From Nitrososphaerota archaeon (GTDB lineage: Archaea > Thermoproteota > Nitrososphaeria > Nitrososphaerales > Nitrosopumilaceae): a stretch of 39,655 nucleotides of DNA. Positions 1,348-27,193 of this stretch are shown piece after piece (position 1 is the first letter of the stretch; the number at the start of each line of letters is the position of its first letter). Below the pieces are notes generated by a model. That model saw nothing but the letters and a program-made list of their open reading frames with translations. It was not told the DNA's origin and searched no databases. Position numbers and translations under genes: made by a program. Where the stretch lies: NCBI GenBank assembly GCA_027315065.1, contig DAHUYT010000012.1:11036-50690 (forward strand), written 5' to 3'.

Positions 1348-2334
1348 ATGACTACGTTGGCCAAAGTAAAATTTGCGGTACCAAAAGGCAGCATTGAAGA
1401 ATCTACATTTAAGATATTAGAAAAATCTTGGACTAGGGTAGTTAGAAGAGACAGGACCTACAGAATAGTGTTAGATGACCCAGAAATTTCAGTTAAGATG
1501 TTACGCCCGCAAGAGATTCCAAACTTGGTAAGCGATGGTCTGTATGATGTTGGAATAACTGGAAGAGACTGGGTTGGTGAAACAAAATCTGATGTGAGTA
1601 TTCTGCTTGATCTGGAATATGGACGAATAAAACTTGTAATTGCAATTCCAGATTCTTACAATTTCAAATCTCTTGATGAAATGATACTAGCTTATGCAAA
1701 AAAGAAGAAAATTCTCAGAATCTCTTCGGAATATCTCACTACTGCAGCTAAATTTATTACGCAATGTAAAAACTACAAGAAACTTTACGGTTCAAAGCAA
1801 CCTCTAATTGTTACACCTTGGCTAAGATTGGGTTCTAACAAAAATGTACAGATATTTCTCTCCTTTGGGGCAACAGAAGCAAAGCCACCAGAGGATGTAG
1901 ATGCTATAATGGATGTAACCGAGACAGGTACTACACTTACGCAGAATCAACTGAAAATAGTAGATACAGTAATGGAATCAACTGCTGTCTTGATAGCAAA
2001 CAAGACATCACTTAAGGACAAGATTAAGCGCGAAAAGATTTATGACATTGTGACCATGTTACATGGTGCAGTAGAGGGTAAGAAACACTTGCACCTATTC
2101 CTAAACGTAAAGGAAGAAAATATACAAAAATTGCTTGAAGAACTACCATCTCTTAAACGTCCTACCATAAGTCCGTTAAGCGAGAAGGGCTGGTATGGCA
2201 TAAATACTGTTATTCCAAAATCGGAATTTCACAAACTAATTCCAAAATTAAGGAAGATAGCACAAGGCTTAGTTGTACACGAACCAAAACAGATTCTTGC
2301 ACTTGAGGAGATAAAGCGTGACGAGGAAAATTGA
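1348..2334 (+). CDS. hisG: ATP phosphoribosyltransferase, long form (histidine step 1)
   Basis: Condenses ATP and PRPP, the first and feedback-controlled step of histidine synthesis. The N-terminus KFAVPKGSIEESTFKILE is the HisG start signature, followed by DVGITGRDW and the PRPP-binding region DVTETGTTL (about 192-200). At 328 residues it is the long form, with a C-terminal ACT-like regulatory domain (about 230-315), so it should not need HisZ and is probably inhibited by histidine. An AT-rich TATATAT stretch at 1325-1332 may be the operon promoter; it is somewhat close to the ATG at 1348 and better spaced for the in-frame TTG at 1357, so the exact start is uncertain. The gene overlaps hisD by one base (TGATG). 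Confidence 0.93.
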   Translation: MTTLAKVKFAVPKGSIEESTFKILEKSWTRVVRRDRTYRIVLDDPEISVKMLRPQEIPNLVSDGLYDVGITGRDWVGETKSDVSILLDLEYGRIKLVIAIPDSYNFKSLDEMILAYAKKKKILRISSEYLTTAAKFITQCKNYKKLYGSKQPLIVTPWLRLGSNKNVQIFLSFGATEAKPPEDVDAIMDVTETGTTLTQNQLKIVDTVMESTAVLIANKTSLKDKIKREKIYDIVTMLHGAVEGKKHLHLFLNVKEENIQKLLEELPSLKRPTISPLSEKGWYGINTVIPKSEFHKLIPKLRKIAQGLVVHEPKQILALEEIKRDEEN

Positions 2335-3602
2335 TGAGAATCATAGACGTTCAAAACATGGATTCTATACAAGGATCTCTGAGGCCCACGCCTAGCAGGG
2401 GATTAAAGAAGAAAGTAATTTCTATTATCTTAGATGTACGAAGAAGAAAGGATAAGGCATTAAGAGATTATGAACGAAGATTTAACAATGTAAACCTAAA
2501 GTCATTTCGAGTAACTCAAGCTGAGATAAGAACTGCTTACAAACGAGTCTCAAGAGACAAGATTGAGGCAATAAATCTTGCAAAGAAGAGACTTGAAAGA
2601 TCTGAGAATGTAATAAAGAAACAACTACGAAATGTTTCAATCTCAACTGATGGAATCAAGATGGACAAAATCTTTTCTCCTTTAGATAGTGTAGCATGCT
2701 ATATTCCGGGTGGAAAGGCACGATATCCGAGTACAGTAATAATGTCAGTCATACCTGCCAAAGTAGCAGGAGTGAAAAAAATAGTAGCAGTATCTCCGGC
2801 AGATCAAAAAGGCAAGATTGATCCACTTACACTTGTAGCAGCTGATATCTGTGGCGTAAATGAGTTTTACAAAATAGGTGGCGCTCAGGCAATAGCCGCA
2901 CTTGCATATGGTACACAATCAATCCCAAAAGTAGACAAGATAGTTGGTCCTGGGGGAATGTTTGTGACCCTAGCAAAATTCCTTCTTAGTGATATCATTT
3001 CAATAGATATGATTGCAGGTCCTACCGAACTTGCAATTGTTGCTGATTTGTCAGCAGATCCTAACTATGTTGCAGCTGACTTGATCTCACAGGCAGAGCA
3101 CAGTGCTGATACAATGTGTTGTCTGATAACAAACTCTGAATTGCTAAAGAATCAAGTGATAAAATTACTCAAACAAAGAATTAACCTTATATCAAGATCT
3201 GATATAGTCAAAGAGAGTCTTCAAAATAATGGATTTATTGCTATCTGTAAAACAGAAGCTCAAATGATAGACATTTCAAACAAACTTGCTCCAGAGCACT
3301 TGGAGGTTATGACTAGAGACTCGCAGAAGACGGCAAAAAAAATAAATTCTGCAGGTCTTGTACTTGTGGGGAGCAACACTCCATCTTCTGCAAGCGACTA
3401 TCTGTTGGGTTCTAACCATATTCTACCCACTAATGGATTTGGAAAGACAAGAGGCTCTCTTGGAGTACTAGATTACTTGAAGCTGCAGACTAGAATCGAA
3501 TCATCCAAGATATCACTTGAGAAGATTTCAAAATATATGAAGGCATTTACTGATGCAGAAGGACTTCCAAATCACTATGAGGCAGTAAGGAGTAGATTAT
3601 GA
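2334..3602 (+). CDS. hisD: Histidinol dehydrogenase (last two steps of histidine synthesis)
   Basis: Oxidises L-histidinol to L-histidine in two NAD-dependent, Zn-dependent steps. Family signatures are present in order: CYIPGGKARYPSTV, YKIGGAQAIAALAYGT, KIVGPGG, AGPTELAIVAD, the zinc-binding SQAEHS, APEHLEV, SNHILPTNGFGKTRGSLGV, and a C-terminal NHYEAV with the last zinc histidine. About 422 residues is normal. ATG at 2334 overlaps the hisG stop as TGATG; an in-frame TTG at 2331 is an alternative one codon upstream. The AGPTE form replaces the common AGPSE, a minor variation. Translationally coupled to hisG and hisC. Confidence 0.94.
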   Translation: MRIIDVQNMDSIQGSLRPTPSRGLKKKVISIILDVRRRKDKALRDYERRFNNVNLKSFRVTQAEIRTAYKRVSRDKIEAINLAKKRLERSENVIKKQLRNVSISTDGIKMDKIFSPLDSVACYIPGGKARYPSTVIMSVIPAKVAGVKKIVAVSPADQKGKIDPLTLVAADICGVNEFYKIGGAQAIAALAYGTQSIPKVDKIVGPGGMFVTLAKFLLSDIISIDMIAGPTELAIVADLSADPNYVAADLISQAEHSADTMCCLITNSELLKNQVIKLLKQRINLISRSDIVKESLQNNGFIAICKTEAQMIDISNKLAPEHLEVMTRDSQKTAKKINSAGLVLVGSNTPSSASDYLLGSNHILPTNGFGKTRGSLGVLDYLKLQTRIESSKISLEKISKYMKAFTDAEGLPNHYEAVRSRL

Positions 3603-4669
3603 AAAAGAGTTGGTTTGAAAAAAAGATAGAAAATCTATCTAATCTTAGTGGATACAAAAAACCAATCAAGTATTCAAACGTAATCAAGCTTGACTCTAAT
3701 GAAAATTATGCAGTTGACTCTTCCTTCTTTCAAGATCTGATAAATCAAACCAAGGAAAAGATCGATGTACGAGAATATCCTCTAGGAGGAACAGACAGGC
3801 TGATTGCAGCACTATCAAACTACACAAAAATGCCAAAGGAAATGATAGGTGTTGGTAACGGCTCGGACCAAATAATTGACCTAATTCTTGGAAACCTGGC
3901 CTCGAAGGAAACTAAGATTTTGACATCTGATCCAACGTTTGGCTTTTTTGAAGAAAGATGCAAACTGTATGCAATCCCAACAACTAGGATTCAATTTAAC
4001 GAAGAAATGGATATGCGTCTTGAAGATTTTATTGCCAACTCCAAGAATGCCAATATTTTGTATCTAGACTCCCCAAACAATCCGACTGGATTTCAGTTTC
4101 AAAGGAAGCAACTTGAAAAATTGATCCAATCGTTTAACGGACTTGTAATCATAGATGAAGCATATGTCGAATTTGCAGACTATTCTATTACTAACATGAC
4201 AAAAAAGATGAACAATTTAATTGTGCTAAGAACACTCTCAAAATCATTTGGGCTTGCAGGTCTGAGAATTGGTTATTTTATAGCTAACAAGAAAACTGTA
4301 GACGTGTTTTCTCGAGTTATTCAATATCCGTATCCCCTTAATACCGTTGCAATAGAAACAGGAATTCTTGCCTTGAAACGCTCAAAATATTTTACAGATA
4401 TAGCAGATTTTGTGAAAAAGGAACGTACTCGCATAATTGAGAAACTCAGAGAAATGAGAGTTTTCAAGGTATTTGATTCTGAGGCAAACTTTGTTTTGTT
4501 TGCAGCAAATGGCATGAGCCAGAGAATTCACAAGGCGCTCATAGAGCAAGGCATAGTGATAAAGAATTTGGGGAAGATAGGAAAACATGATGGATGCCTC
4601 AGAGTTACTGTTGGCACTCAAGAAATGAATTCAAGATTTCTTACTGCAATACGTGATTTGCTGAATTGA
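3599..4669 (+). CDS. hisC: Histidinol-phosphate aminotransferase
   Basis: PLP-dependent fold-type I aminotransferase converting imidazole-acetol phosphate and glutamate to histidinol phosphate. Visible motifs are LDSNEN near residue 32, SPNNPTG (158-164), the PLP-phosphate/pyridine region IIDEAYVEF (184-192), and RTLSKSFGLAGLRIGY with Schiff-base Lys215. The 356-residue length is typical. ATG overlaps the hisD stop by four bases (ATGA), indicating translational coupling. Its product is the substrate of a histidinol-phosphatase, which makes the HAD gene immediately downstream notable. Confidence 0.94.
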   Translation: MKKSWFEKKIENLSNLSGYKKPIKYSNVIKLDSNENYAVDSSFFQDLINQTKEKIDVREYPLGGTDRLIAALSNYTKMPKEMIGVGNGSDQIIDLILGNLASKETKILTSDPTFGFFEERCKLYAIPTTRIQFNEEMDMRLEDFIANSKNANILYLDSPNNPTGFQFQRKQLEKLIQSFNGLVIIDEAYVEFADYSITNMTKKMNNLIVLRTLSKSFGLAGLRIGYFIANKKTVDVFSRVIQYPYPLNTVAIETGILALKRSKYFTDIADFVKKERTRIIEKLREMRVFKVFDSEANFVLFAANGMSQRIHKALIEQGIVIKNLGKIGKHDGCLRVTVGTQEMNSRFLTAIRDLLN

Positions 4670-4671
4670 CC

Positions 4672-5652
4672 ATGAAAAAAATGGATAATGGCATCTATGT
4701 AGATGCACGAAAAATAAATCAGATCAAAAATTTAGACGCAGTAATATTTGACTGTGATGGAGTACTAATTGATGTTTCAAATTCATATGATCTCACAATA
4801 AAAAAAACGGTAGATTTTGTAGTAAATAAAATTGCCTCAATAAACAAGTCATTACCAGTCACAACAGAAATGATAGACAGTTTCAAAAAAACAGGTGGTT
4901 TTAATGACGAGGTCGATGTGACATATGTTATTATACTTGCAGCTGTGGCGTCAGATAAAACTAGCAAGAATTTTTCTGATTTTGTCTTTGAAATAGCAAA
5001 AAATGCGGATCAAACAGGAATAAAATCAGTTGAGCGATATCTTGACTCGATAAAAATCGACTTGACTGATATCAAAAAGAAACTCGTCTATCCTGCAAAA
5101 AGACTTGAAAGTCCACTCTCATCTATCTTTGATGAACTCTTTTATGGGGAAGATATGTACGTTCAGCTTTACAAGAGATCTCCAAAGTTTTTTAATGGAA
5201 AAGGTTTGATTGAAAATGATACTGTACTTGTAACAAAGAATCTCTTAGATGAACTACATCAAAGATTTAACAAAAAAATCTCCATTGTTACAGGTAGGGG
5301 AATAATATCAGTAAAACACTCTCTCAAGAAACTGTCTGATGAGTTTGACTTGGAGAACTCAAGATTCCTTGAGGATGAACCACGTGAGATAGCAAAGCCA
5401 AACCCTCAATCACTTATATCGTCGATTAAGGGAATGGGATCTTTTTGTTCAATGTTTGTCGGTGATTCTATGGAGGACTTTATCATGGCACACAAGGCAG
5501 TAGAGTCTGGGAATCCTACCCTGTTTTGTGGTATATATGGTACCAGCAAAGACCCAGGTACCAAGAGGGATTTCTTCGAACAAAAAGGTGCAGATATAGT
5601 ACTAGAATCAATCCATCTAATTCCGAAGACATTAAATCTAGTTAGGGCATAA
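4672..5652 (+). CDS. HAD-superfamily phosphatase in the his operon, candidate histidinol-phosphatase
   Basis: The protein has HAD motif [10 protein letters not shown] (nucleophile and general-acid Asp at about 27 and 29), a motif II-like IVTGRG, and motifs III/IV KPNPQSL and [14 protein letters not shown], which together support a Mg-dependent phosphohydrolase of subfamily IA type with a cap between motifs I and II. It is about 326 residues from ATG 4672; TTG at 4666, overlapping the hisC stop, is possible. It lies between hisC and hisB, and no other histidinol-phosphatase (HisN, PHP-type HisJ/HisK or HisB N-domain) is visible in the operon, so dephosphorylation of histidinol phosphate is the natural role. 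The phosphatase fold is seen directly; the substrate is inference from position. Confidence 0.8.
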
Positions 5653-9488: not shown

Positions 9489-10706
9489 TTGGCAAAGATA
9501 AAATCGTTGCAATGTAGGGAATGTAAGAGGGAGTATACTCCTACATTTAGGTACATCTGCGAAGAATGCTTTGGCCCTCTTGACGTGTGCTATGATTTTC
9601 CTAAAGTGACCAAGAATACGTTTGCAAACCGTGAACATACTTACTGGCGCTATCATGAACTGTTGCCGATTGAATCAAAATCAAATATAATAAGTATCGG
9701 TGCAGGACTAACTCCTCTCATTAAAGCAGATAAACTAGGTGAGCAGCTTGGTCTTAATAATTTGTACATAAAAAATGATTCTGTAAATCCAACTTTTTCA
9801 TTCAAAGATAGACCGGCAGGTGTTGCAGTTTCAAAAGCAAAAGAATTTGGTCTTTCTGCAGTAGGATGTGCATCAACTGGAAATCTTGCATCAGCTACTG
9901 CGGCTCATGCTGCAAAGGGTGGTTTTTCATGTTATATTTTTGCGCCAAGCGACATTGAACATGCAAAAATCACACAAGCTCTTTCGTACGGGGCACATTT
10001 CATCGCAGTTGATGGTACATATGATGACGCAAACAGGATTGCAGCCCAGATAGGAGACAGTAAGGGAATAGGAATCGTAAATATTAACATGCGTTCATAC
10101 TATGTTGAAGGATCAAAGACTCTAGCCTTTGAGGTTGCAGAACAACTCGATTGGCAAATACCTGATCATCTTGTTGTACCTGTAGGAAGTGGAGCTATGT
10201 TAAATGCTATATGTAAAGGATTTGAGGAACTTGAAGTATTATCTCTTGTAAACAAAGTATCTAATATGCATATGATTGCAGCCCAACCCCATGGTTGTGC
10301 CCCTGTGGTGGATGCCTTTAAGAAAAATAAAACTGAGATTGTACCAGTAGAGAATCCAGATACTATTGCAAAGAGTCTTGCCATAGGAGATCCGGGTGAT
10401 GGTCAATATGTTCTCAAACGATTAAAACAATACAATGGTTATGCTGAAGAATCATCGAACAAGGAGATTCTGGACGCTATTTTGCTGCTTGCAAGGACAG
10501 AAGGAATATTTACAGAACCTGCTGGAGGTGTGTCAGTTGCGGTTCTCAAAAAGATGATCGAGACAGGAAAGATTGACAAGAATGACTCTGTTATATGTTA
10601 TGTAACAGGGAATGGTTTGAAGACTACCGAAGTTATGATGGAAGTACTCTCAAAACCCCAGACCGTGCAAGCCGATATATCCAAGATTGCTGCATTGGTG
10701 AGATAA
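9489..10706 (+). CDS. thrC: Threonine synthase (PLP-dependent, with N-terminal zinc ribbon)
   Basis: Converts O-phosphohomoserine to threonine. A CxxC...CxxC ribbon (Cys9, 12, 24, 27) opens the protein, as in many archaeal ThrC. The fold-type II core has SFKDRP with PLP Lys106, the STGNLASA phosphate/substrate loop (about 130-137), the glycine loop PVGSGAMLNA, and a C-terminal TEPAGGVSVA and VCYVTGNGLK-type ending (VICYVTGNGLK). The 405 residues are normal. The start is TTG with a TATA-like element upstream. The MoaD-E1 fusion begins one base after the stop, so they are almost certainly one transcript. A role as a protein-thiocarboxylate-dependent sulfhydrylase, suggested by the neighbour, is possible but threonine synthase fits the sequence best. 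Confidence 0.87.
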   Translation: MAKIKSLQCRECKREYTPTFRYICEECFGPLDVCYDFPKVTKNTFANREHTYWRYHELLPIESKSNIISIGAGLTPLIKADKLGEQLGLNNLYIKNDSVNPTFSFKDRPAGVAVSKAKEFGLSAVGCASTGNLASATAAHAAKGGFSCYIFAPSDIEHAKITQALSYGAHFIAVDGTYDDANRIAAQIGDSKGIGIVNINMRSYYVEGSKTLAFEVAEQLDWQIPDHLVVPVGSGAMLNAICKGFEELEVLSLVNKVSNMHMIAAQPHGCAPVVDAFKKNKTEIVPVENPDTIAKSLAIGDPGDGQYVLKRLKQYNGYAEESSNKEILDAILLLARTEGIFTEPAGGVSVAVLKKMIETGKIDKNDSVICYVTGNGLKTTEVMMEVLSKPQTVQADISKIAALVR

Positions 10707-10707
10707 T

Positions 10708-12024
10708 GTGGCTAGTATAAAATTCACTATACCATCAGTACTAAACAAAGGCGGAGGGGAAAAAAAAGTCGATATCTTGGCTACTACATTAAATGAGGCA
10801 TTCAACAAAATCTCAGAACAATTCGGAGATGAGTTCAAACGAAGGGTTCTAAATCCTGATGGTACCCCCCGTTCTCTAATCAACATATACGTAAACGGAA
10901 AAAACATGCGGTTTTCAGGAGGGATGGAAACTATACTAAAGGACGGTGACGAGATCTATATACTTCCGGCAGTAGCTGGTGGCTCTGAACTATCTAGCAA
11001 AGAACTTGAACGATATTCTAGACAAGTTATGCTTGAAGAAATAGGATATGAAGGACAACTAAAGCTTAGGAATGCGAAAGCGTGTATCGTAGGAGTAGGT
11101 GGTCTTGGCAATCCTATAGCAAGTAGGCTGGTAGCTATGGGTATTGGTACAATAAGAATTGTGGATAGGGACGTTGTAGAGCTGTCGAATCTACACAGAC
11201 AGACTATGTTTGATGAATCAGATATAGGGCAAGTAAAAGTAGAAGCTGCAGAGCGAAAGTTAAAAAAAATGAATTCTGATGTAGTAATTGAAGCTCTACC
11301 TGTATCTGTAAACGATTACACTGCTTTAGATATTGTAGAGGGATGTGATGTAGTAATAGATGCTCTTGACAGTGTAAATGCAAGATATTCACTCAACAAG
11401 GCATGTGTGGAAAAAAATATCCCATTTGTAACAGGCGCAGCTGTAGGTGTCTCAGGACAAGTATTTACTATCATTCCAAATCAAACCGCTTGTTATCATT
11501 GCGTTTTCCCATCACTTGATGAAAACTCAATGCCAACATGTAGTACTGAGGGGGTACATCCATCGATTCTTTCCATCGTGGGAGGAATTGAGGTTGCAGA
11601 AGCTGTTAAAATACTGATTGGGAGATCTCCGACTTTAACAAATAAACTACTTTACATAGATCTAGACAATCTGGATTTCAGTACAGCAGAATTCAAGAAA
11701 GTTGACGAATGTTCTGTATGCGGGAAAGGCAAAAAAGAAGAATTATCAAAACAAGAACTAATAATTGAAGAACTCTGTGGTCGTAGCAGAGGTAAGAGAA
11801 CCTTTTCAATAACTCCTACGACTATGTTAGAGATCGATATGCCAAAAATTACAAATGTGGCATCAACAAAAGGATTCAAGATACAAAATCAGGGAGAACT
11901 TGGTCTTTCCATATCCACAAATGATGTATTTGTAAGCTTCCTGAAGCGAGGCTCTGCAGTTATTGTAGGGGAAAAAGATGAAGATTCTGCAATCGCATTG
12001 TATAAGACATTGGTAAACGCTTAG
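10708..12024 (+). CDS. MoaD/ThiS-like ubiquitin-fold domain fused to a MoeB/ThiF-type E1 adenylyltransferase
   Basis: Residues 1-92 form a MoaD-like beta-grasp domain ending in PAVAGG (Gly91-Gly92). Residues 98-340 are a HesA/MoeB/ThiF domain: YSRQ, ATP loop GVGGLG (129-134), VDRD (152-155), adenylation Arg in LSNLHRQ, a candidate catalytic Cys278 in PTCST, and structural zinc cysteines CYHC (262-265) and CSVC (335-338). Residues 345-438 are an additional C-terminal domain I do not recognise; it is not rhodanese-like. Such E1s adenylate the C-terminal Gly-Gly of a sulfur carrier for thiocarboxylation, but here the Gly-Gly is internal and would need cleavage to be activated. The start is GTG one base after thrC. 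Domain calls are firm; the pathway served (Moco, tRNA thiolation, amino-acid sulfur) is not decided by the sequence. Confidence 0.88.
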   Translation: MASIKFTIPSVLNKGGGEKKVDILATTLNEAFNKISEQFGDEFKRRVLNPDGTPRSLINIYVNGKNMRFSGGMETILKDGDEIYILPAVAGGSELSSKELERYSRQVMLEEIGYEGQLKLRNAKACIVGVGGLGNPIASRLVAMGIGTIRIVDRDVVELSNLHRQTMFDESDIGQVKVEAAERKLKKMNSDVVIEALPVSVNDYTALDIVEGCDVVIDALDSVNARYSLNKACVEKNIPFVTGAAVGVSGQVFTIIPNQTACYHCVFPSLDENSMPTCSTEGVHPSILSIVGGIEVAEAVKILIGRSPTLTNKLLYIDLDNLDFSTAEFKKVDECSVCGKGKKEELSKQELIIEELCGRSRGKRTFSITPTTMLEIDMPKITNVASTKGFKIQNQGELGLSISTNDVFVSFLKRGSAVIVGEKDEDSAIALYKTLVNA

Positions 12025-25881: not shown

Positions 25882-26198
25882 GGTAGTAGCTCTGCCAGTT
25901 CCAGTCTAGGCAAATGGCCTCATCTCAAGTCAAGCAAGATCCGCCACGTAGACGACGCAGCGTGAATGCTCTACCTTAGGATTGCTCCCTCCCGGACCTC
26001 ATCCCTTTCGGCAGTTAGAACTTGAGAGCTATCCCTTCGGACAGTCTCAGTCCTGCATCCACCCGCTTCGGCGTGATTTCATCTCCGCAAGTCAAGCGAG
26101 TATCATCCATCTAGAGATTTACCCAGCAGTTACTGACCTCTGCATATAGCCGGTTTCAGAGGTAGGGCACGGCTAGCGCCCTAGTCTTCCCTACTACC
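25882..26198 (-). ncRNA. ffs: Signal recognition particle RNA (7S RNA)
   Basis: On the minus strand the 5' end GGTAGTAG pairs with the 3' end CTACTACC, closing a roughly 317-base GC-rich RNA in an AT-rich setting. The helix 8 signature GGTCCGGGAGGGAGCA (25983-25998) matches the conserved G-rich SRP54-binding loop. The stem-loop GGGCGCTAGCCGTGCCC near the 5' end fits helices 3/4 of archaeal SRP RNA, and CGCCGAAGCG lies in the helix 6 region bound by SRP19. Length is typical for archaeal SRP RNA. The RNA scaffolds SRP19 and SRP54 for co-translational membrane targeting. RNase P RNA was considered and does not fit. Confidence 0.87.
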
Positions 26199-26230: not shown

Positions 26231-27145
26231 TTAGGGTCGATTTAGTCCTAGATTCAATAGTGTATTGCACACGGAACACACATCCCCAGTGCACTCTTCT
26301 CCACACTTTGAGCAATTTTTCCACATTTTGCCCGTTTCATCTTTAAATGTGGAAGAAACCTTCAAAATTGATTTGTACATGTTGTTCTTGATTCCAATAT
26401 GATTTTTTTCCAACGAATTTAGAAAATTGCGTATCTCAGTCCTTATGCCCTCATTCATGTGGGGGCATTCTTCTGACTGAAACGGAATATCATTTGTAAA
26501 AGCGTAAAAGACAATCTCGCTTTCATAAATTTCACAAAATGGCTTTATTCTTCTTGCTTTGTTATTTGGTAGTTCGGGATCCATCCAACCTATCTTGCTT
26601 GTATCACCTGAAAGAAGGTTGATGATAAAAGTCTGAATAAAATCGTCCATATTGTGACCTGTTGCAACTGTATCCACTCCTAATTCCTTTGCACCAAAAT
26701 CGATAGCACGTCTTCTTAATATGCCACATATAGAACACGATGAGATCTTTTCCTTTTCTCGTAGCTCAAGCGATTGTTCCAAGGTAGTGCCAAAAAGATC
26801 CTTGTATGAATAAACATCATACACAACCTGAATCTTGCTGCAAAAATTTCTTACAATCTCTAATGCCTCGTCTCTGTATCCTGGAATTCCTTCGTCAATT
26901 GTAATGGCCTTGAGCGTAAAATCATGATTCAATGAAATTTGCTTCAATGTATGTAAGAGTGATAGCGAATCCTTTCCGCCAGAAACAGCAACTCCAATCA
27001 CATCTCCGCCATTGATCATCTTGTATTTTGAGATGGTTTTTGCAGTCTTTCTTACAATTGACTTTGAAAAGCAACCTGAACAAAGATTTTCCCCAGAATA
27101 TTTCCTAGAGTAAACTGTTATGTTTTCACACCAATCACATTTCAT
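26231..27145 (-). CDS. tRNA 2-thiolation protein, TtuA/Ncs6 (TtcA-like) family
   Basis: PP-loop ATPase that adenylates a tRNA uridine and inserts sulfur. An N-terminal zinc ribbon (CDWC and CSGC), the PP-loop SGGKDS, a CSIC pair and a later Cys in SEECPH (probable 4Fe-4S ligands), TGHNMDD, and a C-terminal four-Cys zinc ribbon (CSKC, CSVC) make the TtuA/Ncs6 layout complete. About 304 residues. ATG at 27145 is used here; TTG at 27151 has a GGTGA Shine-Dalgarno-like match six bases upstream and would add two residues. These enzymes take sulfur from a ubiquitin-like thiocarboxylate, so the MoaD-E1 fusion at 10708 is a possible partner (inference). Target (U54 or U34) is not decidable. Confidence 0.88.
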   Translation of the reverse strand: MKCDWCENITVYSRKYSGENLCSGCFSKSIVRKTAKTISKYKMINGGDVIGVAVSGGKDSLSLLHTLKQISLNHDFTLKAITIDEGIPGYRDEALEIVRNFCSKIQVVYDVYSYKDLFGTTLEQSLELREKEKISSCSICGILRRRAIDFGAKELGVDTVATGHNMDDFIQTFIINLLSGDTSKIGWMDPELPNNKARRIKPFCEIYESEIVFYAFTNDIPFQSEECPHMNEGIRTEIRNFLNSLEKNHIGIKNNMYKSILKVSSTFKDETGKMWKNCSKCGEECTGDVCSVCNTLLNLGLNRP

Positions 27146-27193
27146 GGCCAAGTCTTCTCACCCCTTAATTTAACTATATTTTGCTCGAGTTTC

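Follow-up and report, generated by a model that had tools for sequence, protein, structure and literature searches.

The window, by which we mean the whole stretch of 39,655 nucleotides analysed here from a member of the Nitrosopumilaceae, carries a gene in which a sulfur carrier is joined to its own activating enzyme, placed directly behind a gene for a PLP enzyme. The features on which our reading is built are the following.

9489-10706, forward strand: PLP enzyme annotated as threonine synthase, placed in the clade of MetM, the O-phosphohomoserine-dependent homocysteine synthase (PALP 7e-74; 100/100 clade with a Nonomuraea enzyme)
10708-12024, forward strand: fused sulfur carrier-E1-TBP-like protein (GTG start, 438 aa)
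10708-10983, forward strand: CysO/MoaD-type ubiquitin-fold sulfur-carrier domain, MetO-like, residues 1-92 (ThiS PF02597, moaD_arch, CysO 3dwg_C; strands plus helix in the AlphaFold2 model)
10978-10983, forward strand: codons of the internal Gly91-Gly92 (invariant in 122/122 fused homologues; the end of free carriers in never-fused lineages with the same operon)
10984-11010, forward strand: variable linker, residues 93-101, with the expected cleavage site at its start (9-47 aa in homologues, 0 invariant residues)
11011-11715, forward strand: ThiF/MoeB-type adenylating E1 domain, residues 102-336 (PF00899 1.2e-75; Foldseek ThiF/MoeB, E about 1e-23)
11539-11541, forward strand: Cys278, candidate catalytic cysteine (invariant across 20 aligned homologues)
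11758-12015, forward strand: C-terminal TBP-like domain, residues 351-436 (invariant EELCGR, with Cys357; weak fold matches)

The domain make-up of the fused protein is clear. Pfam places ThiS at residues 25-92 (8.6e-10) and ThiF at residues 103-336 (1.2e-75), and the NCBIfam model moaD_arch, which scores 50 bits against a cut-off of 49.5, ends at residue 92. The solved structures nearest to residues 4-92 are a ThiS/MoaD protein (4n6e_B, 5.1e-13) and M. tuberculosis CysO (3dwg_C, 1.6e-12), both aligned through their final residue, and the E1 domain is nearest to ThiF and MoeB among solved structures by Foldseek. These matches bear out the original prediction of a MoaD/ThiS-like domain (residues 1-92, ending AVAGG) fused to a complete MoeB/ThiF-type E1: the protein has the ThiF fold, the ATP-site glycines, Arg105, Asp221 and the zinc cysteines (C262, C265, C335 and C338), residues which, like the proposed catalytic C278, are invariant in 20 diverse homologues. 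An AlphaFold2 model of the fusion built from a 20-sequence alignment (mean pLDDT 80) is confident over the E1 and the C-terminal domain and shows in residues 1-92 the order of strands and helix expected for the predicted beta-grasp, and its pLDDT drops below 50 over residues 89-110, exactly the junction of carrier and E1. The third domain, initially described as unrecognised, indeed has no Pfam match (about residues 350-436), but its confident model (mean pLDDT 85) weakly resembles TBP, which is among the top fold matches (E about 0.06-0.3), and it had already been named TBP by Makarova & Koonin 2010. The EELCGR motif of this domain is invariant in these E1s, which have no rhodanese domain of the kind seen in the f44/f45 relatives; its Cys357 is possibly a sulfur relay cysteine.

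Within the gene product, residues 86-92 read LPAVAGG and run directly into the E1 helix with no stop codon between, so that the carrier has no free C-terminal Gly-Gly and would expose residues 91-92 only after cutting. A frame or assembly error was rejected, as the same ORF occurs in more than 100 genomes, several of them made of one contig. The possibility that the E1 is translated on its own, from a start codon inside the ORF, was rejected as well: there is no in-frame start between residue 73 and Met108, and since Met108, the first in-frame start past the Gly-Gly, would cost the Arg105 helix, a complete E1 cannot be made separately. One contig filed under a Nitrosomonas MAG (L041, JAJFJL010000089.1) bears the archaeal fusion at 71% identity and is most likely a mis-binned archaeal contig.

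Comparison of homologues established that the buried Gly-Gly is kept in all 122 distinct fused proteins, a conservation not due to chance. The carrier ends in AVAGG in 119 of them, in SVAGG in two and in IVGGG in one, and in the 20-sequence alignment LPAVAGG forms unbroken invariant columns, the next invariant column being S104. The linker has no fixed residue: the distance from the Gly-Gly to the E1 motif RYSRQ ranges from 9 to 47 residues, one spacer being poly-Ser/Asn. An invariant tail followed by a variable linker is the pattern that would be expected of a recognised tail and a mere spacer. We also considered self-cleavage by an N-to-O/S shift at the residue after the Gly-Gly and rejected it; that residue is S in 109 proteins, A in seven, L and T in two each, and C and E in one each, and this variation means that a self-cleaving Ser or Cys is not required.

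The best 80 relatives found were all of Nitrosopumilales type. In two wider searches, the fusion proved to be general in the family of the window, the Nitrosopumilaceae (f1; 34/38 genomes), and in f43, and was also found in f38, in most of f37 and once in f17. Deeper families (such as f39, f42, f47 and f48) have the same order of PLP enzyme and carrier, mostly followed by the E1, and there the unfused carriers of these operons stop exactly at the Gly-Gly; at two loci (L175 and L202) carrier and PLP enzyme are still paired though the E1 lies elsewhere. Secondary fission has taken place in one genus of f37, where a stop codon in the linker splits the fusion in two species, leaving carriers that keep 15 and 8 residues past the Gly-Gly (L163:2707-3066 / 3039-4178; L164:3374-3706 / 2245-3423). 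On a tree of 50 E1 sequences the fused state needs six changes in total, of which three are imposed by branches with good support; they involve ammonia-oxidizing archaea (AOA) and kin, an f40/f45 clade, and f17. On this tree the carrier-E1 fusion arose at least three times, and the junction was thus made repeatedly with the Gly-Gly kept on every occasion. The remaining four of the 38 sampled Nitrosopumilaceae genomes (G066, G245, G249 and G259; 98-99% complete) show neither the operon PLP enzyme nor the fusion and retain a ThrC homologue, which reflects either assembly gaps or a dispensable system; short of such gaps, these organisms may be methionine auxotrophs.

A peptidase able to release the carrier may well be present. 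Proteins matching PF14464 (Prok-JAB) were found in all 21 genomes searched, that of the window among them, which encodes two (L142:4567-5007 and L143:4211-4624). Both have the full JAMM motif HSHx7SxxD (HSHPNSAAYPSSTD and HSHPSGAAKPSVTD) and match the desampylase model with scores under its cut-off. The JAMM genes of AOA do not adjoin the PLP-[carrier-E1] operon. A JAMM gene does adjoin the fused gene in f45, in clusters of the form JAMM-[carrier-E1-rhodanese]-cystathionine-gamma-synthase type, and in f40 (CysM-JAMM-[carrier-E1]), and the related f44 cluster reads JAMM-carrier-E1-CysM, its carrier having 15 residues past the Gly-Gly; in the clusters just described, every carrier beside a JAMM gene has its Gly-Gly buried. 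Moreover, the window genome (97.7% complete) has a single E1 and, by the PF02597 family model, two ThiS-family proteins, both with a non-terminal Gly-Gly and none with an exposed one. The second of these proteins lies at Cgi121 and reads ...VVHGGGKNKRKL. It is present in 41/41 sampled Nitrosopumilaceae genomes, in nearly all of them fused to Cgi121 with HGG inside, and the JAMM enzymes may serve this carrier. In the window genome, it and Cgi121 are two overlapping ORFs on contig C7 (L144:4848-5126 and 5095-5628), the Cgi121 ATG overlapping the Gly codons; among the loci read, such a split was seen elsewhere only in G059, nearly all other Nitrosopumilaceae searched having one fused ORF. Taken together, the invariant Gly-Gly with its drifting linker, the free carriers ending at Gly-Gly, the JAMM gene beside an independent fusion, and the combination of two JAMM genes, one E1 and no exposed-Gly-Gly carrier make release of the carrier after Gly92 likely. 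Of the two alternatives originally offered, processing or decoy, the same observations favour processing and disfavour the decoy.

The PLP enzyme encoded just upstream, which the original prediction did not connect with the fusion, points to homocysteine and methionine synthesis. The carrier-E1 gene starts directly after this gene, and the pairing is kept in the relatives compared, whether the carrier is fused or free. Its label as a threonine synthase is by homology, and a further ThrC homologue (L147) is encoded in the window genome, just as AOA relatives show two. The PLP-lysine motif is NPTFSFKDRP in the window enzyme and, with few deviations, NPT[F/Y/N/L]SFKDRP in operon enzymes, as against NPTGSFKDRG in threonine synthases of solved structure and in most of the paralogues that those genomes encode. 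A 39-sequence tree unites every operon enzyme with an actinobacterial enzyme, from Nonomuraea, in a single clade (100/100 support), and canonical threonine synthases, including a ThrC from a hom-thrC-thrB cluster, fall outside it. The Nonomuraea enzyme stands proxy in this placement for MetM of Streptomyces albulus: its gene lies downstream of a SAM riboswitch (68.7 bits) and upstream of a free carrier of 91 aa ending in AVAGG. The same arrangement is reported for S. albulus, in which metO and a SAM riboswitch adjoin the gene for MetM, an enzyme that converts O-phosphohomoserine to homocysteine (Hasebe et al. 2024, via PMC12172450). Judged by motif and phylogeny, the product of 9489-10706 is not the housekeeping threonine synthase and groups with a MetM-type enzyme. 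A cyanobacterial MetM homologue is described as having mainly threonine synthase/deaminase activity (PMC12172450). A search of the window found no SAM riboswitch; as described in the same source, the riboswitch is not universal for MetM, being absent in Microcystis (PMC12172450). An archaeal SRP RNA gene is located at 25884-26196 on the reverse strand (Rfam RF01857, 100.3 bits).

Homocysteine formation by this enzyme from O-phosphohomoserine is consistent with the absence of the classical routes. In a survey of 121 genomes of the order, enzymes of PF01053 (MetB/MetY/CGS, counted at E <= 1e-40) were restricted to f39, f41, f44 and f45, and those of PF01837 (HcyBio) to f42, f46 and f47; the 86 sampled genomes of f1, f43, f37, f38 and f48, that is the fused lineages and one unfused family, had neither at these settings. 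By hand count, the operon PLP enzyme occurs in 80/89 genomes lacking both classical enzymes versus 7/32 with one (Fisher 1.7e-12, a value that is descriptive only because the genomes are related), and some lineages hold both the PLP-carrier operon and a classical homocysteine enzyme.

The best reading of these data, to which we assign a probability of about two in three, is that the locus is a MetM-[MetO-E1] operon for homocysteine whose carrier is freed by JAMM cleavage. The gene product would be a precursor, a MetO/CysO-type carrier continuous with its own ThiF/MoeB-type E1, which a JAMM metallopeptidase of desampylase/Mec+ type encoded elsewhere in the genome would cut after translation behind Gly92, yielding carrier and E1 at 1:1. 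We infer that the E1 would then adenylate the new Gly92 carboxylate on the way to a thiocarboxylate, and that the carrier would hand its sulfur to the adjacent MetM-type PLP enzyme for the making of homocysteine from O-phosphohomoserine; methionine synthesis is the most likely use of this sulfur. The JAMM enzyme may also hydrolyse the carrier-homocysteine adduct, in the manner of Mec+ on CysO-cysteine.

Other accounts of the locus deserve consideration. The fusion could stay uncleaved, its ubiquitin-fold domain being regulatory or a decoy whose Gly-Gly tail occupies the active site of the E1; the carrier served by the E1 would then be the second one, for tRNA thiolation. Such an arrangement could draw on the fused E1 being the only one in the genome, on the ubiquity of the second carrier in the sampled Nitrosopumilaceae, and on a TtuA-like tRNA 2-thiouridine PP-loop enzyme encoded at 26231-27151 on the reverse strand of the window. 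We nevertheless consider it rather unlikely: in nearly all relatives the second carrier, too, is joined at its Gly-Gly to another protein, Cgi121, and so also needs cutting, the Gly-Gly next to the E1 has stayed invariant through three independent fusions and through re-splitting, and the pair of PLP enzyme and carrier occurs without any fused E1. Furthermore, without any cutting the genome would encode no substrate with an exposed Gly-Gly for an E1 whose catalytic residues are all conserved. The TtuA-like enzyme is likely to be another user of carrier activated by the single E1.

Alternatively, the carrier may be cleaved and yet serve cysteine synthesis, in the manner of CysO with a CysM/K-like enzyme encoded elsewhere, or tRNA thiolation. 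CysO is among its nearest solved relatives, a CysK/M homologue does exist elsewhere in the window genome, and CysM is the partner in f40 and f44. This seems to us unlikely, given that the constant neighbour in AOA is the MetM-type enzyme, that the carrier-PLP pairing persists where the E1 lies elsewhere, and that the classical homocysteine enzymes are missing. Conjugation of the released domain to proteins, as a modifier of the SAMP/ubiquitin kind, would fit the SAMP1 model match (43.5 of 60 bits) and the desampylase-model matches, both below cut-off; against the constant metabolic neighbour, we regard it as very improbable as a replacement for a metabolic role, and since archaeal SAMPs can do both jobs it may be an addition and not an alternative.

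The fusion as such is known: 'Ubl-E1-TBP in Thaumarchaeota' was listed by Makarova & Koonin 2010 (PMC2948915), and a 2024 survey of archaeal fusions counted MoaD-MoeB fusions in 61/98 Thaumarchaeota assemblies (PMC11237513), both referring to the protein family of the window ORF. The survey treats it under molybdopterin synthesis (PMC11237513); no Moco genes were found among the neighbouring genes we examined. In their passages on the fusion, the two papers make none of the links drawn here, with an operon of a PLP enzyme, with JAMM genes next to independent fusions and with homocysteine, and they do not explain how a carrier could function with its Gly-Gly buried (PMC2948915; PMC11237513). 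What comparison adds, and what supports processing and a methionine role in AOA, is the invariant Gly-Gly with a drifting linker, free carriers ending at that point, at least three separate origins of the fusion, a JAMM gene beside an independent fusion, and a PLP enzyme of the MetM clade.

Among characterised systems, MetM-MetO as described (Hasebe et al. 2024, via PMC12172450) shares the ThrC-like PLP enzyme with a small sulfur carrier next to it; what sets AOA apart is the joining of carrier and E1, and the window yielded no riboswitch. In CysO-CysM-Mec+ of M. tuberculosis, served by MoeZR, the PLP enzyme uses a phosphorylated amino acid and takes its sulfur from a thiocarboxylate, a scheme that the CysO-like carrier of the window would follow; CysO, however, is free and makes cysteine, and MoeZR has a rhodanese domain where the window protein has a TBP-like one. 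A parallel for processing is MoaX, a MoaD-MoaE fusion of M. tuberculosis that is cut between Gly82 and Ser83 and is inactive if uncut, together with DR2607 of Deinococcus, DRJAMM cutting MoaD-MoaE. There too the carrier is fused at an internal Gly-Gly and activated by cutting, as we propose for the window protein, although the partner is MoaE and not an E1 and the product is molybdopterin. The earlier verdict that either processing or a decoy would be unusual was thus too strong, as the fusion is published and cutting of fused MoaD after Gly-Gly is known; the window family shares with such processed fusions a conserved junction Gly-Gly (122/122) and a JAMM peptidase encoded in the genome. Krishnamoorthy and Begley are said to have described, in 2011, HcyS-HcyF-HcyD-MetY of Wolinella as a protein-thiocarboxylate route to homocysteine in which a JAMM peptidase exposes the C-terminal Gly of the carrier, much as proposed here, with another PLP enzyme and another homoserine ester; the f45 clusters, with their cystathionine-gamma-synthase type enzyme, are the closer match to it.

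AOA are very abundant autotrophs, yet the sampled genomes are without both classical homocysteine enzymes, and the operon offers a concrete candidate route that would re-label a gene annotated as threonine synthase. The joining of a carrier to its activating enzyme, at least three times and always with the Gly-Gly kept, amounts to a natural experiment. It leads one to expect a processing protease and carrier and enzyme made in a 1:1 ratio, and relatives, with their free carrier of ancestral type and two secondary splits, allow the idea to be tested directly. More tentatively, it may be that no ubiquitin-fold sulfur carrier of AOA is made with its Gly-Gly exposed, the first being joined to its own E1 and the other to Cgi121; JAMM proteolysis would then be an obligatory activation for thiocarboxylate chemistry as a whole, methionine synthesis by way of MetM-[MetO-E1] included.
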